A stretch of DNA of 43,741 bases from a virus, in the IMG/VR virus record IMGVR_UViG_3300050139_000007, positions 1-43,741 of that record. One strand, written 5' to 3'. Below are positions 646-43,741 of this stretch, piece after piece. The notes beneath the pieces are model-generated. The model saw only the letters and a program-made list of their open reading frames with translations. It was not told the origin of the DNA and made no database searches. The translations under genes and the position numbers were made by a program. How positions within the stretch are numbered: the first letter of the stretch is position 1; each line of letters opens with the position of its first letter.

Positions 646-3495
646 TTGACCCCGACTCAAGCCAAGGCCACAATCCTTGACTTACTAGAGAAGGGGTTTA
701 CTATTGCCGATGCCTGTAAGGTATCAGGCAGGTCGGTTAAGTCCTACGAGGGCTACAAGGCAAACGACTCAGACTTTAGAACCAAGATAGAGATTATCCG
801 TGCCACCCAGAATAGGGACGGCAAAGTCCTCCAAGAGGACGCAGACATATCCTTTGAGGATTTCAGGCTCAAGTACCTGAACTCCCAGACCTTCCCCCAT
901 CAGTTGAACATGATTGACCTGCTGGAGGACAGAGACCCCCGCTGGCTCCATGACTCTATGGTTTATGAGCCAGGGGAGAGGCAATACGTCTTAGTTAACG
1001 TACCGCCAGATCATTGTGCGGTAGTTACTACACCAGTCTTTTCCAACCGTGGCTGGATTACGGTAGGAGACGTAGTAGAAGGCGACAGACTTGTAGGCAG
1101 GGATGGAATGTTCTGGCCCGTCTATGAAACCTGGGAACCCGATACTGCAGTAGAGACGTTCACCGTTAAGTTTGATTCAGGTGATAAGATCGTAACCGAT
1201 GCCGCCCATAAGTGGGTGGTTCACGATTACCGTGGTGGTCAGCATATGATGACTACTGCCGAACTAATCGAGAAGCCCAAGATAAACAAGAACCAGAAGT
1301 GGCGCGTCCAGGTTACCCCCTCTGTTTTTATGGAGGAAGCGGAGTTGCCCATTGACCCATACCTCATGGGGTACTGGCTAGGTGATGGCGATAAGAACGC
1401 CCCACGTCTTGCAGTTGGTGATGAAGATACCCAACCATTGCTCGACCAAATAGATTCTATGGGTTATACCTATAACAAGACACGCGACTCCCGCGATGGT
1501 TCCAATGTTGTCTATGTCCACGGAATACGCAAGTTCCTTCCTTTGGGGGACAAGAGGATACCAGATAAATACTTCTTGGGTTCTCGCGATCAACGACTAG
1601 CACTCCTACAGGGGTTGATGGACTCTGACGGAACCATCACCGTTAAAGACGGTAGGGCTAGGTGGGTGCAGAATAACCGCCCAGAACTTGCCACAGATGT
1701 ATATAGACTCATTGCCTCACTCGGCATGAAGCCCCACTACAAGAAGTACAAAGCCTCAAGGGGCACGGGACTTGTCGCCCCTGGCGACTATGGATTTTCT
1801 TATGAGGTTGGATTTAGACCAACCGAGTGTAAGGTTTTCAGATTAGAACGTAAAGCATTACGACAGAAACCTATCGGTCCGCGTTCTAAGACACAGTTTA
1901 GAGTTATCGACTCTATCACCCCAGCGGGTATGAACCACGTAAAGTGTATTACGATGTGCGCCCCTGACGACTTATTCGCGGTAGGTAACGGTCTAATACT
2001 AACCCACAACGCCAAGTCTATGACCGTGAGTATTGACTACGTTACCTATCGTGTATGCCTGGACCCCACCATCCGTGTCAAGATCGTATCCAAGACGCAG
2101 ACGATGGCGGCAGAGTTCCTTTATGCTATCAAGCAAAGACTTTCCTCCCCCATGTGGGCAGACCTGCAAAAGAGGTTCGCACCAGTAGAAGGCTACAAGG
2201 CCACCGCTGACAAGTGGACCTCAACTGAGATTTACCTCCAGCGGGATTCTAGCGAGAAAGATCCCACTATACAAGCCCTTGGTATCCAAGGGCATATTTA
2301 CGGTGCCAGAGCAGACTTGATCGTACTGGACGACTGTGTAACCCTATCCAATGCTGGAGAGTACGAGAAGCAGATTCGTTGGATTCAACAGGACTGCGTA
2401 ACCCGATTGGGGCCATTCTCCAAGTTGCTTGTCGTGGGTACCCGCGTTGACCCTATTGACCTCTACAAGGAATTACGCTCAGACACCAGATACCCAGAAG
2501 GTGTGTCCCCGTGGACTTACCTGGCTATGCCAGCGGTATTGGAATCAGATGAGGACCCTACCAAGTGGGTAACTCTCTGGCCCAAGTCAGACCGCCCGTG
2601 GCTTAAAGACAAGACCGAGCCAGATGAGAACGGACTCTATCCCCGATGGGACGGACCCCACCTTCGCAAGCGTCGTGCAATCTTAGAACCCCGAACCTGG
2701 GCAATGGTTTACCAGCAACAGGACGTATCCTCTGAGGCGATCTTCAATAAGGAGTGCGTACAGGGAACTGTGACTGGTATGCGTCGTTCTGGCCCCTTAG
2801 TCAAAGGCGCACCTGGACACCCAGACACTATAGCCCCACCGTATGTCATCTGCTCTATGGACCCCGCTATGACGGGGGACACGTTCACTATCGCCTATGC
2901 AGGGGATGCCTCAACGGGAAAGCGTTACGTGCTGGAGGCTTCCAAGATGACCTCCCCAACCCCTGAGAAGATCAGGGATATTATTTCCAGTTGGACAATC
3001 AAGTACAACCCGAATGTGTGGGTTATTGAAAAAAACGCTTTTCAGTTGTTCCTCACGATGGACGAGGGAATTAACAAGTTCCTTGCCTCCCGTGGTATTC
3101 GCTTAGTTCAACATTACACGGGCAACAACAAGATGGAGACCGAGTTCGGTGTGGCATCCGTCTCTCCCCTATTTGGTTCTGTGGATGCGATGGGAAAGCA
3201 TAGAGGCGACAACCTCATATTCCTTCCCGCTGCCGATACCGAGGCTATTAAAGCATTGATCGAGCAACTTGTCACCTGGTCACCAGGGACGAAGAACAAG
3301 TCTGACGGCCCGATGGCTTTATGGTTTGCCGAAACGCAGATGAGGCAGTTCATCACCCAGACTGGAATATACCAGAGGACTTCGGTTCCCAACCCTTATA
3401 GGTCAAGGAACGATGATGCAAAACGCAGGGTAGTCAACCTTGACGAGTGGCAAGAGTACCAAGAAGAACTTAGGGCTAGTGGGGGGATGTGGTAA
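646..3495 (+). CDS. terL: Terminase large subunit with in-frame LAGLIDADG intein
   Basis: ATP-driven DNA packaging motor and headful or cos nuclease. An intein of 332 aa (nt 1015-2010, residues 124-455) interrupts the ATPase exactly inside Walker A, between PPDH and AKS. The joined extein reads VPPDHAKSM. Walker B (LIVLDD) lies near residue 560, and nuclease acidic residues appear in SMDPAM (Asp about 739) and VIEKN (Glu about 795). The intein has Cys1, Trp two residues after the block-B His (residue 190), Cys 434 in block F, Thr 453 and terminal His-Asn, a WCT set typical of class 3 inteins. It also has two LAGLIDADG helices (about 239-250 and 320-332). The +1 residue is Ala, which is unusual. 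TTG 646 has no clear ribosome site; CTG 601 may be the real start. Confidence 0.93.
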   Translation: MTPTQAKATILDLLEKGFTIADACKVSGRSVKSYEGYKANDSDFRTKIEIIRATQNRDGKVLQEDADISFEDFRLKYLNSQTFPHQLNMIDLLEDRDPRWLHDSMVYEPGERQYVLVNVPPDHCAVVTTPVFSNRGWITVGDVVEGDRLVGRDGMFWPVYETWEPDTAVETFTVKFDSGDKIVTDAAHKWVVHDYRGGQHMMTTAELIEKPKINKNQKWRVQVTPSVFMEEAELPIDPYLMGYWLGDGDKNAPRLAVGDEDTQPLLDQIDSMGYTYNKTRDSRDGSNVVYVHGIRKFLPLGDKRIPDKYFLGSRDQRLALLQGLMDSDGTITVKDGRARWVQNNRPELATDVYRLIASLGMKPHYKKYKASRGTGLVAPGDYGFSYEVGFRPTECKVFRLERKALRQKPIGPRSKTQFRVIDSITPAGMNHVKCITMCAPDDLFAVGNGLILTHNAKSMTVSIDYVTYRVCLDPTIRVKIVSKTQTMAAEFLYAIKQRLSSPMWADLQKRFAPVEGYKATADKWTSTEIYLQRDSSEKDPTIQALGIQGHIYGARADLIVLDDCVTLSNAGEYEKQIRWIQQDCVTRLGPFSKLLVVGTRVDPIDLYKELRSDTRYPEGVSPWTYLAMPAVLESDEDPTKWVTLWPKSDRPWLKDKTEPDENGLYPRWDGPHLRKRRAILEPRTWAMVYQQQDVSSEAIFNKECVQGTVTGMRRSGPLVKGAPGHPDTIAPPYVICSMDPAMTGDTFTIAYAGDASTGKRYVLEASKMTSPTPEKIRDIISSWTIKYNPNVWVIEKNAFQLFLTMDEGINKFLASRGIRLVQHYTGNNKMETEFGVASVSPLFGSVDAMGKHRGDNLIFLPAADTEAIKALIEQLVTWSPGTKNKSDGPMALWFAETQMRQFITQTGIYQRTSVPNPYRSRNDDAKRRVVNLDEWQEYQEELRASGGMW
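1015..2010 (+). mobile_element. LAGLIDADG intein in terminase Walker A
   Basis: The coding segment for 332 residues runs from Cys1 to the terminal HN. It has splicing blocks (CAVV..T.VF start; AAHKW block B; VKCIT block F; LTHN end) and a two-motif homing endonuclease in the middle. Insertion into a nucleotide-binding P-loop is a classic intein site. WCT residues point to class 3, which uses the block-F Cys as first nucleophile. Alanine follows the last Asn, so the usual C/S/T +1 nucleophile is missing and splicing would need a different second step. Confidence 0.9.
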
Positions 3496-16916: not shown

Positions 16917-17051
16917 ATGGTAGCGATAGTTGATATTTGGAAGTACGACCCGTATTCATTTCATATCAATCAAGACCCAGATGACCTCATTGTAATTGCC
17001 ACCCTCTTAAAGGAGCAGGGCCTGGATAATGCACAATACGCGCCAGAGTGA
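16917..17051 (+). CDS. 44-aa hypothetical protein
   Basis: A short acidic protein (starting MVAIVDIWKYDPYSF) with a perfect AAGGAG ribosome site 6 nt before ATG 16917. Its last 23 bases overlap the start of the glycosyltransferase gene, which suggests translational coupling. The DPDDLIVIATLL segment looks like an amphipathic helix. No family is recognised. Confidence 0.6.
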   Translation: MVAIVDIWKYDPYSFHINQDPDDLIVIATLLKEQGLDNAQYAPE

Positions 17052-18129
17052 GAAACCAAAGATAAAGATTGCCACGTACTCAATTGCAAAAGACGAAAGT
17101 AAGCACGTTGCACGTTGGTTAGAAGCAACCAGGGAGTCAGATTATCGAGTGGTATTCGATACTGGTTCCACAGATAATACAGTAGAATTACTCAAAGCAG
17201 CAGGAGTCATCGTAGAGGTGGGCATCATCACCCCTTGGAGATTCGACACCGCTAGAAACAGGGCATTAGACCTAGTTCCACAGGACGCGGATGTGTGCCT
17301 GATCTTGGACATGGACGAGGTTCCAGAGAAGAACTTTTACAGGAAAGTACGAAAGCAATGGGTGCTCGGTGCAGACCGAGGCTGGATAGATATTGACACG
17401 GGTTTCAAGTGGAGGGTTGACAGACTCCACTCGCGCAACAACTGGAAGTGGCAATGGCCTTGCCATGAGGTTGCCATTTGGCAACTAGAGCGCGAGTACG
17501 TGTTCTGCGACACCACGGCGGTCATCAAGCATGAACCAGACTCATCCAAGAGCCGTGGTCAGTATATGACCATGTTACAGGATGCTTGCGCTGGAGAGTT
17601 TTCAGAGGACTCCCGTATGTGGATGTACCTCACCAGAGAGTACTACTTCAACAACGAGTGGGCCAAGGTCATTGAGTGCGCCAATAAGGCACTCACCTTC
17701 GACGGCTGGGACGTTGAACTGGCGGCATTATGCCGTTGGGCAGGAGATGCCTCTAAGAACCTCAAGATGGACGCTACAGACTGGTTTGACCGTGGGGCGA
17801 GTATCTGCCCACAAGAAGGCGAACCGTGGCTAGGAGTGGCAGCAGAAGCCTTTAGAACCCATAAGTGGGAGAAGGCATTAGATGCCGCTATCCGCGTCAT
17901 AGAGACTCCCAAGATGAACCATTATCTACATGAGCCTACCGCATGGAGTTGGAAAGCCTATCGGATTGCGATGGACTGCTCCTACAACCTCGGCTATCTG
18001 GATGAGGCTATTGCCTTCGGCAACGAGGCATCCAAAGCCAAGGGACCAGAGCAAGCAAGTATCGAGCGAAATCTAAAGTTTATGGAAGGGTTGAGGCGTG
18101 GAACACGAGCACAAGCCAAAGGTAACTGA
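17029..18129 (+). CDS. Family 2-type glycosyltransferase with helical repeat C-terminus
   Basis: A 366-aa protein. Residues about 13-180 match a GT-A glycosyltransferase fold: an N-terminal nucleotide-binding strand (IATYSIAKDE), DTGSTDNT (about residues 43-50) and a metal-binding DMDE (about 90-93). The rest (about 200-360) is tryptophan-rich helical hairpins like TPR repeats. It would transfer a sugar from a nucleotide sugar, perhaps to virion proteins, given its place among virion genes; DNA or host-surface targets are also possible. Its start overlaps the preceding small gene and its end overlaps the next. Confidence 0.82.
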   Translation: MHNTRQSEKPKIKIATYSIAKDESKHVARWLEATRESDYRVVFDTGSTDNTVELLKAAGVIVEVGIITPWRFDTARNRALDLVPQDADVCLILDMDEVPEKNFYRKVRKQWVLGADRGWIDIDTGFKWRVDRLHSRNNWKWQWPCHEVAIWQLEREYVFCDTTAVIKHEPDSSKSRGQYMTMLQDACAGEFSEDSRMWMYLTREYYFNNEWAKVIECANKALTFDGWDVELAALCRWAGDASKNLKMDATDWFDRGASICPQEGEPWLGVAAEAFRTHKWEKALDAAIRVIETPKMNHYLHEPTAWSWKAYRIAMDCSYNLGYLDEAIAFGNEASKAKGPEQASIERNLKFMEGLRRGTRAQAKGN

Positions 18130-26738: not shown

Positions 26739-26986
26739 GTGTTGCCAGCCACGTAATCCTGGGCGTTACCCTGTGGCAATACTGCTGGCGTCTATAACCT
26801 AGATGCTTGTGGACAAGGACTGTTCGACCAGTTGCCAACGTAACACTGCACCCTTGTTGGGTTCGGTTATAGCCTACCCCTGGTTGGTTGTCGAAACTTC
26901 CCAGGAAATCTAAAGGCAGTTTTACGCAGACATACCCAGGTCCTTTTAGGGATTTGGCCCGCCATAGCGAGTGTTCCCGTCACACG

Positions 26987-27058
26987 CCCGAATGGAGGGA
27001 CTCGAACCCTCTTCGACCCCGCCTTAGCGGGGGTGCTTCACCATTTCGCATCATTCGG
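26987..27058 (-). tRNA. tRNA or tRNA-like cloverleaf, anticodon uncertain
   Basis: A minus-strand fold with a 7-bp acceptor (CCGAATG/CATTCGG), a canonical T arm (GAGGG-TTCGAGT-CCCTC), a D region with the usual GG, and a 5-nt variable loop. The anticodon arm is odd: a standard 7-nt loop would be GCTAAGG with C at position 33 and a C-C clash at the top of the stem, while the best helix leaves a 4-6-nt loop. No CCA is encoded. It may be a degenerate tRNA or part of a larger RNA. Confidence 0.55.
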
Positions 27059-28685: not shown

Positions 28686-29321
28686 ATGAGTAATGAGTTC
28701 GGACCACAGACATATCAAATCAAGAAAGTAATTGAGAAATTTAAGACGTTAACACCAGCGCAAATTGCCTCTCTGGATGCCTCTCTGGATGCCTCTCGGG
28801 CTGCCTCTCGGGATGCCTCTTGGGCTGCCTCTCGGGGTGCCTCTTGGGCTGCCTCTCGGGCTGCCTCTCGGGATGCCTCTTGGGCTGCCTCTTGGGATGC
28901 CTCTCGGGCTGCCTCTTGGGATGCCTCTTGGGCTATGCGAGACGTGGTAGAAGCCCTACATTCTCGCGACCTGATAGGCAACAAGTTCACCCAAGCACAT
29001 TATGATTATCTCGTTCTTCCTTGGCGACAGATTGTTGGCGAGTTTGAGGAACCACCAACTGTCGAGCCATTGGAGAAGCGGGTTGATAAGTTGGAGAAGC
29101 GGGTTGATAAGTTGGAGAAGGTTATCAACTATGGACTTCCTTGGTACGCAGTGAGTCTACCTACCGCAGATACAATATCAGCCAATGTGGAATATCTATG
29201 TCAATTAGGTGAGCGCAAAAAGAAAGCGCGCGAAGAATTGAAAGAACGATATGAAACCCAGAAAGAAAAACTTTACAAAGGTTATCAAGTAGAGAATGAC
29301 AATATAGAGAGGATGAGATAA
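28686..29321 (+). CDS. Alanine tetrapeptide-repeat protein, paralog 1
   Basis: A 211-aa protein. Residues 28-83 are 14 repeats of Ala-Ser-(Arg/Trp/Leu)-(Asp/Ala), followed by a domain with [22 protein letters not shown] (about 94-117). A heptad coiled coil follows (two copies of LEKRVDK, about 130-145), then a charged helical tail. The post-repeat domain matches that of the leftward gene 39389-40159. Such DAxWxAA-type proteins are widespread in phages without known function; they probably form a long helix or helical stack. Confidence 0.7.
28767..28934 (+). repeat. Fourteen 12-bp tandem repeats
   Basis: Fourteen units of the type GCCTCTYKGGMT run without interruption and in frame, so unit number can vary without breaking the gene. 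Sequence variation between units is concentrated at three positions. Confidence 0.95.
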
Positions 29322-38966: not shown

Positions 38967-39389
38967 CTAATACCACGAATGGCGCTGGAAGTGCGCCCAT
39001 GCTTTACAAGGAGTGTAGTACCGATATGCGATATAAGCAAGACCTCTTTCAATCTGCAAGGTCGGCGGGGTTAATGGACTCATATTTAGAATCTGTGGAA
39101 TGCCACCAGCGTTCTTGCCCATGACTTTCACGGGATTGACCGCTTTCGGGTTCCATGCGCTCTCCTTGCCCCATAGGTTTGATAGGCACACAAATTGAGC
39201 CTCGGCGTCCTTGATTACTGCGTCGTGAGCGTAAGCGAGTGAGTCCGTCTTGGTCCAAGTGTGCACTAATGGTCTGGTATATGGCGCACTAATGGTAGTG
39301 TCGGTTGGTCGGGTGTGGTCAAACGTATCCACTACTCCAATAATTGAGAAGGCTAAGATTGCGCCAAGGATTGCTTCAGTTATAACCAT
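38967..39389 (-). CDS. Membrane-anchored lytic-transglycosylase-like protein
   Basis: A 140-aa protein. Residues 1-23 are a membrane or signal anchor (VITEAILGAILAFSIIGVV). The rest matches a small SLT/Rpf-like lysozyme fold: WGKESAWNPKAVN (catalytic Glu at about residue 75), GGIPQIL and GLAYIAYRYYTPCKAWAHFQ near the end. It would cleave glycan strands of the wall. It lies in the leftward operon, far from the lysis cassette, so an entry-independent role such as wall remodelling or lysis aid is possible. Confidence 0.75.
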   Translation of the reverse strand: MVITEAILGAILAFSIIGVVDTFDHTRPTDTTISAPYTRPLVHTWTKTDSLAYAHDAVIKDAEAQFVCLSNLWGKESAWNPKAVNPVKVMGKNAGGIPQILNMSPLTPPTLQIERGLAYIAYRYYTPCKAWAHFQRHSWY

Positions 39390-40159
39390 TATTTGCCTCC
39401 CTTTATTGCCGTCTTTGGGTTGTCCAGGGCTGATTGAACTTCTTTGATTTCCTTGTCGAAGTTCGGTTTCTGCAAATCCTCATCGTCTGGATGAATCTTG
39501 CCTATTGCTTGTCTCCAAGGGATTGTGAGAGCATCGTAATGTTCTTGGGTGAACCTTCCTTTGCCGATGAGATCACGGGAAATAAGTGTCCTTGCGGCGT
39601 CCCCTGCGGCGTACCCTGCGGTGCACCATGGTACGCACCATGCGGCGTACCATGCGGCGTCTCCTGCGGCGTCCCATGCGGCGCACCATGGGGCGTCCCT
39701 TGCGGCGTACCATGCGGCGTCTCCTGCGGCGTCCCTTGCGGCGTCCCTTGCGGCGTCCCCTGCGGCGTACCCTGCGGTGCACCATGCGGCGCGGAGTTTC
39801 TCAATATCATTTTTGTCTAGTTTCTTGGCTCGCTCAATAAGTGCGACCACTTCCTTGCCTTGAGGCCCAAAGAACTTCCATGACTCAATTTCGCGGGTCA
39901 CAAATGCTTTACTTGCTCCGATTTTATGCGGGTGAGAGCCGTCCATGTAGATTATCGCGTCACTTGCTGGCTCAATCTCAAAGAGTCGGCAAGGCCATGA
40001 TGCCCCTACACACTCGGATGGAACTGTTGCTAGGTGCAACCAACCAGAGCCAGGAAACTCGCCCTTACCCGACATTTCAGGCAGGGGTACGCGGGTGTAG
40101 TCGATCTTGCCAGTATGGAAATCTGTACCGTCCATCTTTGTTGCCTTGTAATATGTCAT
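39389..40159 (-). CDS. Alanine tetrapeptide-repeat protein, paralog 2
   Basis: A 256-aa protein. The N-terminal 120 residues form an alpha/beta domain; then 17 repeats of Ala-Ala-x-(Asp/Tyr/Cys) type (about residues 123-190). Next comes a domain with SRDLIG..FTQEHYDALTIPWRQAIG (about 193-220), shared with paralog 1 at 28686-29321, and a charged tail. The repeats are encoded by 12-bp units unrelated in sequence to those of paralog 1. Function unknown. ATG 40159 follows AAAGGAG. Confidence 0.7.
   Translation of the reverse strand: MTYYKATKMDGTDFHTGKIDYTRVPLPEMSGKGEFPGSGWLHLATVPSECVGASWPCRLFEIEPASDAIIYMDGSHPHKIGASKAFVTREIESWKFFGPQGKEVVALIERAKKLDKNDIEKLRAAWCTAGYAAGDAARDAARDAAGDAAWYAARDAPWCAAWDAAGDAAWYAAWCVPWCTAGYAAGDAARTLISRDLIGKGRFTQEHYDALTIPWRQAIGKIHPDDEDLQKPNFDKEIKEVQSALDNPKTAIKGGK
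39589..39792 (-). repeat. Seventeen 12-bp tandem repeats
   Basis: Seventeen GC-rich units, for example CCCTGCGGCGTA on the plus strand, run in frame within the leftward repeat protein. Several neighbouring units are identical, which suggests recent expansion by slippage or unequal crossover. Confidence 0.92.
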
Positions 40160-43614: not shown

Positions 43615-43741
43615 AGGAATAAATAATTTAAGGAACCTCGAAGAAGGTTCCGCTATTCTGCTACACCTTCTTCTCATACAACGAGTTCAAACGAGTTGTA
43701 TGGTTAGTAAATAGATTTACTTATTTTGGGATATCTATGCC
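43615..43741. repeat. Right copy of 127-bp terminal direct repeat
   Basis: Exact copy of bases 1-127. Joining the ends places the control region (42.9-43.6 kb) directly upstream of the leader at 1-380, so the two should be read as one region of about 1.1 kb. Confidence 0.95.

Follow-up and report, generated by a model that had tools for sequence, protein, structure and literature searches.

The large terminase (TerL) gene of the phage analysed here is split by a class-3-derived intein that is followed by Ala, and its sequence suggests that the insert probably rejoins the two halves of the terminase by a reaction other than the usual transfer to the +1 residue. We analysed the whole 43,741-nucleotide stretch of the IMG/VR virus record IMGVR_UViG_3300050139_000007 (hereafter the window), which carries the same 127-base direct terminal repeat at positions 1–127 and 43615–43741 and which, because of these identical ends, we take as a complete phage genome. 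The terminase precursor is encoded on the plus strand by an ORF of 949 amino acids (646–3495, TTG being its first candidate start) that matches phrog_38 with an E value of 2.9e-55; its match to the NCBIfam model termin_lrg_T7 (4.7e-17) lies under the curated cut-off of that model. The N-extein (646–1014, plus strand) ends in PPDH (1003–1014), the first half of Walker A. It is followed by an intein of 332 amino acids with a LAGLIDADG homing endonuclease (1015–2010, plus strand) and by the C-extein (2011–3495, plus strand), which, as aligned to intein-free relatives, contains AKS (the rest of Walker A), the Walker B motif LDD and the nuclease domain. The borders read VPPDH, CAVVTTP...LILTHN and AKSM, with the junctions after VPPDH and after LILTHN.

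We compared the split gene with 83 intein-free terminase relatives, taken from three phage records and from the best 80 matches in IMG/VR, the latter with a C-extein identity of 68–80%. All 83 read PP[DE]HAK[ST] at the junction. The matches to the N- and C-exteins adjoin with a gap of 0 in 82 of them, and L024, whose contig ends inside the motif, still reads PPEHAKS. The junction is therefore exact, and residue +1 (2011–2013, plus strand) is truly Ala, the side chain of which is non-nucleophilic. An earlier note on this DNA had proposed an intein that splits Walker A between PPDH and AKS and leaves no nucleophile at +1, and had allowed that intein-free relatives might move the junction; the exact empty sites in this conserved protein bear out the in-frame insertion, and the junction stays where it was placed. 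No shifted cut of 332 residues yields PPDHAKS, which, together with the empty sites, rules out an alternative junction. An RNA intron was rejected as well, since the insert reads through as a single open frame and encodes recognisable intein motifs; no Rfam match was found in the window at gathering thresholds. As Ala+1 is a native residue of the terminase loop, PPDH–AKS must be restored by splicing.

The protein that hosts the insert is intact. By alignment, the terminases of the window and of three further loci described below (L106, L108 and L269) retain both Walker motifs, the nuclease residues and the coupling motif. The C-extein of the window shares ~49% identity with its counterparts in Streptomyces phages, for example ZooBear (Immanueltrevirus). 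The window has a single phrog_38 gene and hence one terminase, which rules out a second, spare copy. In G001, too, a spare terminase was rejected, as both of its matches come from the exteins of a single 991-residue frame.

We analysed how often Ala is found at +1 among related inteins. Relatives were gathered through their similarity with the window intein and through patterns for the endonuclease motifs, so that mini-inteins and distant forms are under-sampled. Of the 227 rows (226 loci and the window), we merged 13 as duplicates and dropped two, L212 (298 amino acids) and L263 (one stop), both with Ser at +1; L105, with no block F Cys and with Thr at +1, had been removed before this count. 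Among the matches listed, the resulting 212 non-redundant class-3-like inteins have Ser (118), Thr (85), Cys (5) or Ala (4) at +1. The four with Ala are those of the window, L106, L108 and L269, the remaining 208 of 208 having Ser, Thr or Cys, and all four lie in one terminase site, with PPDH or PPFH before the intein and AKS after it. Since Ser, Thr or Cys is found in 208 of the 212 matches listed and the four exceptions share a site, Ala at +1 is more than chance variation. By source, the phage records and the first IMG/VR scan (21 loci) always had Ser, Thr or Cys; the 81 loci of the second IMG/VR set among the matches listed had Thr in 46, Ser in 29, Cys in 4 and Ala in 2; and the 125 loci from genome contigs and the third IMG/VR scan, again among the matches listed, had Ser in 88, Thr in 34, Ala in 2 and Cys in 1, with no Ala+1 member among the 80 loci of the genome contigs scan. 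Pattern scans returned L106 and one false match (L107) for THNAKSMT, and the contigs of L106 and L108 plus two false matches for PPxHCAxVxTP. The scan for ACNCACAACGCNAAGTCN gave 86 stretches, including the L106 contig; among frames longer than 200 amino acids in L313–L393 it gave one intein only, that of the L108 contig (L313). In the phages collection, none of the best 60 of 751 matching records exceeded 35% identity.

The site of insertion is displaced relative to other class 3 inteins. Among the matches listed, the usual site reads [GA][KR], junction, [ST] in 153 of the 208 other inteins, and PP...K loops (for example PPGSAK, junction, ST) host 8 of the 208. The window site, with PPxH before and AKS after the intein, is two residues ahead of the usual class 3 Lys/Ser-Thr site. 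A mobile class-3-derived intein probably inserted itself two residues ahead of the customary position in the P-loop. Its first C-extein residue is thereby the native Ala, and the Ala clade lacks a +1 nucleophile because of where it is inserted.

As the earlier note had read from W190, C434 and T453 of the ORF, the insert contains the class 3 triplet Trp B:12, Cys F:4 and Thr G:5, together with Cys1. In intein numbering these are Trp67 (1213–1215), Cys311 (1945–1947), Thr330 and Cys1 (1015–1017), and N455 is Asn332; block B His is His65 (1207–1209), and Thr330-His331-Asn332 (2002–2010) forms the block G end, all on the plus strand. Among the matches listed, His65 is found in 4/4 Ala+1 members and 206/208 others, Trp67 in 4/4 and 202/208, and Cys311 in 4/4 and 207/208, with Thr330 and Asn332 in 212/212; these five residues are thus retained in every Ala+1 member. 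Cys311 is the proposed thioester branch point, and Asn332 would be the residue that cyclises. Cys1 is unusual for class 3, and block F:13, where His is usual, is Asp319 (1969–1971, plus strand). The homing endonuclease region (1336–1914, plus strand, limits approximate) has both LAGLIDADG-type motifs, LMGYWLGDG and LLQGLMDSDG (Pfam LAGLIDADG_3, E 4e-7), and is intact.

The best solved sequence matches of the window intein are the class 3 DnaB inteins 6rix, 6bs8 and 6riy. AlphaFold, given the intein flanked by 10 residues at either end, predicted a HINT fold (mean pLDDT 92.3, pTM 0.91) that many solved inteins match. Although full-length endonuclease inteins had the top Z in structural alignment (1jva, Z 27.1), class 3 mini-inteins fitted the predicted fold more closely and with higher identity: 6riy with Z 19.8, rmsd 1.9 and 32% identity over model residues 11 (Cys1) to 343, and 6bs8 with Z 19.6, rmsd 1.5 and 30% identity over model residues 11–342 (Asn332).

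The nearest sequence matches among the matches listed are class 3, which supports common descent with class 3 inteins. Type A bacterial intein-like (BIL) domains form a family with no WCT set, with variable secreted hosts and with no homing endonuclease; the window insert has the WCT set, a terminase P-loop host and a LAGLIDADG endonuclease, although its end (THN, then Ala) is, as in type A BILs, a His-Asn end with no +1 nucleophile. Class 1 does not accommodate it either, as Cys1 is present and the +1 nucleophile absent, and Ala departs from the general intein rule of Ser, Thr or Cys at +1. For a set of 1701 class 3 inteins, the absence of Cys at position 1 was used as a criterion (PMC7891396); Cys1 is present in the window, L106 and L108, and Pro1 in L269. 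The +1 acceptor of class 3 is replaced by Ala in 4/4 members, compared with Ser, Thr or Cys in 208/208 others among the matches listed. Because it departs from class 3 in these two features, the insert is, as judged from its sequence, a class-3-derived variant and not a strict class 3 member.

The class 3 inteins compared (MP-Be DnaB, M. smegmatis DnaBi1/M. chimaera DnaB1 and mycobacteriophage TerL inteins such as LittleE gp9) have in common with the window the WCT triplet, block B His, the His-Asn end and a P-loop ATPase host, and class 3 inteins often contain a LAGLIDADG endonuclease, as the window intein does. Unlike them, the window has Cys1 and Ala+1, which makes a second branched intermediate impossible. 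Cys1 is reportedly carried also by the Snf2 intein of Deinococcus radiodurans. A title cited in PMC4031507 places that intein in class 3, with a branched intermediate at block F. When put into a reporter, TerL inteins of mycobacteriophages splice, and the commonest TerL1 insertions are those in the P-loop (PMC5050341). Type A BILs resemble the window in the missing +1 nucleophile, the His-Asn end and the proposed aminolysis of a thioester (PMC4031507), and differ from it in that the window has an essential, conserved ATPase as host, a homing endonuclease and, most likely, the block F Cys as carrier; BIL domains are described as mainly cleaving. A search of the main texts of open-licence papers turned up no class 3 intein that lacks a +1 nucleophile.

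Class 3 splicing loads the N-extein onto the block F Cys, from which it moves to the side chain at +1. The window clade cannot take this second step, since Ala+1 offers no acceptor side chain. A change of +1 Ser or Cys to Ala in three class 3 mini-inteins left precursor only (PMC5222942), and in the AceL NrdHF intein S+1A stopped splicing, with partial N- and C-cleavage (PMC7891396); splicing of the Ala form would therefore need compensating changes. In MchDnaB1 with Ala+1, the C-beta of the Ala is 4.7–5.0 Å from the sulphur of the block F Cys, a gap that rotation of the Cys would shorten (PMC7664689). For type A BILs, ligation has been proposed to occur through Asn cyclisation and attack of the amine on an N-terminal thioester (PMC4031507). 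The THN ending that is common in class 3 gave fast and efficient C-cleavage with varied +1 residues in gp41-1 (PMC12245125). Taken together, the BIL proposal, the MchDnaB1 distances and the THN end favour a thioester on Cys311, followed by cyclisation of Asn332 and direct attack by the Ala amine. We consider it fairly likely that this class-3-derived intein has one branched intermediate and that the block F thioester undergoes aminolysis by the amine of Ala.

The splicing steps that we infer would be as follows. Cys311, activated by His65 and Thr330, would attack the His–Cys1 bond and so come to hold the N-extein in thioester linkage. In members that have it, Cys1 may accept the N-extein first and then pass it to Cys311, or may serve as a second carrier. 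There would be no transfer onto the +1 side chain; instead, cyclisation of Asn332 would free the alpha-amine of Ala+1, which, already beside Cys311, would attack the thioester and form the native His–Ala bond in one step, giving terminase with the sequence VPPDHAKSM. In effect, the intein would be an intramolecular transpeptidase that passes through a single branched intermediate where other inteins of its kind need two. Free amines attack thioesters more slowly than thiols do, and hydrolysis competes; these two points, the mostly cleaving behaviour of BILs, the Pro1 and TRN of L269 and the failure of the +1 Ala forms of other class 3 inteins to splice count against block F aminolysis. The earlier note had named this same step, and in our analysis it appears to be the best-supported second step, though not quite as proposed for BILs: the published BIL model puts the thioester on the N-terminal residue (PMC4031507), so block F aminolysis is an extension of the BIL idea.

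A reaction closer to the published BIL scheme (PMC4031507), in which Cys1 would form the thioester by an N–S acyl shift, Asn332 would cyclise and the Ala amine would attack, with Cys311 assisting only, is doubtful. It is favoured by Cys1 itself, found among the matches listed in three of the four Ala+1 members, which are one clade, versus 4 of the 208 others (L124, its near copy L129, L156 and L103); the Fisher value for this enrichment among the matches listed, 8.8e-5, is overstated because the Ala+1 clade is one event. This reaction, however, needs none of Cys311, Trp67 and Thr330, all of which are kept in 4/4 members, and L269 has Pro1 yet keeps Cys311. Since L269 starts with Pro1, Cys1 is neither the companion that defines Ala+1 nor a fixed part of the variant. 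It is most improbable that another side chain acts as second nucleophile, or that the thioester shuttles among Cys1, Cys311 and Cys315 before aminolysis. AKS does supply a Ser at +3 in 4/4 members, but attack from there requires a long-range acyl shift, for which we know of no precedent; and Cys315, four residues past Cys311 in the window, is not conserved, the three remaining members having Ser, Thr or Leu (Asp is found there in 148/208 others among the matches listed).

We analysed the relationships of the Ala+1 inteins in a tree built from 73 of the 212 inteins; as all of these are class-3-like, it tests grouping inside the class-3-like inteins and not their outer limit. The structure alignment of inteins comprised 60 sequences. 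The four Ala+1 inteins lie on one side of a single branch (SH-aLRT 99, stem of 0.92 changes per column), and with this single origin their 4/4 counts are not four independent trials. Members are 46–58% identical in the intein and 40–50% in the extein, the intein being the more similar in 6/6 pairs. Third codon positions are the most variable in 12/12 comparisons of intein and C-extein, and synonymous sites are apparently saturated. The intein of L269 (1568–2539 of that locus) has Ala+1 and the shared terminase site, with Pro1 and with TRN in place of THN; it may be a decaying copy or a further variant.

It is less likely that ligation has been lost, so that the protein is cleaved or stays as precursor and the phage either has no terminase or obtains it in trans from an intein-free co-resident phage. 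With Ala at +1, four class 3 inteins lost the ability to ligate in published experiments (PMC5222942, PMC7891396), a decayed class 3 intein is on record (PMC3196547), and L269 has its first and penultimate residues changed. In that known class 3 pseudogene, however, the exteins have decayed too (PMC3196547), whereas here four lineages, 46–58% identical, retain the catalytic residues and a whole terminase, and the window, taken as a complete genome, encodes a single terminase. A dead insert kept in an essential motor in four lineages is thus unlikely, although the terminase might be rescued in trans, and loss of ligation as a whole is unlikely too. The earlier note's choice between another second step and a cleaved or dead protein was well framed, and these diverged lineages with intact terminases speak against its second branch.

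Block F aminolysis, like any route that cyclises before ligation, would need a re-tuned C-terminal region. The region that controls the C-terminal step does look re-tuned in the Ala+1 clade. Block F:13 is Asp, Asp, Asn and Asn in the four members; in the 208 others among the matches listed it is mostly His (114), Gly (42), Ser (24) or Arg (12). The F:13 residue and the penultimate His have been named as helpers of Asn cyclisation (PMC7891396). Further residues specific to the clade are Ala2, where 168 of the 208 others among the matches listed have Leu, and Val17 and Thr61.

To our knowledge, all accepted classes of intein share a final transfer onto a Ser, Thr or Cys at +1. We see an even chance that the Ala+1 clade represents a distinct splicing class that dispenses with the +1 nucleophile by efficient direct aminolysis at block F, as a single-turnover cysteine transpeptidase. 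If the clade keeps the packaging motor alive without a +1 nucleophile, one thioester and Asn cyclisation would be enough for productive splicing, and inteins could occupy sites with any +1 residue. Such inteins would form a bridge between inteins, BIL domains and cysteine transpeptidases, and could lead to ligation tools whose joins are free of Cys, Ser and Thr. The Ala+1 clade is a conserved natural set in which to study ligation without a nucleophilic side chain.

Elsewhere in the window, a glycosyltransferase-like gene (17029–18129; phrog_13126, E 3e-66) lies downstream of the major head protein gene. ARAGORN calls a tRNA with no clear anticodon on the minus strand at 26986–27058, where there is no Rfam match at the gathering threshold. 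Two arrays of tandem 12-base units were found within ORFs: TGCCTCTCGGGA at 28766–28932 (13.9 copies, 88% matches), in ORF 28686–29321, and TGCGGCGTCCCA at 39593–39791 (16.6 copies, 80% matches, with a 60-base super-period), in the minus-strand ORF 39389–40159.
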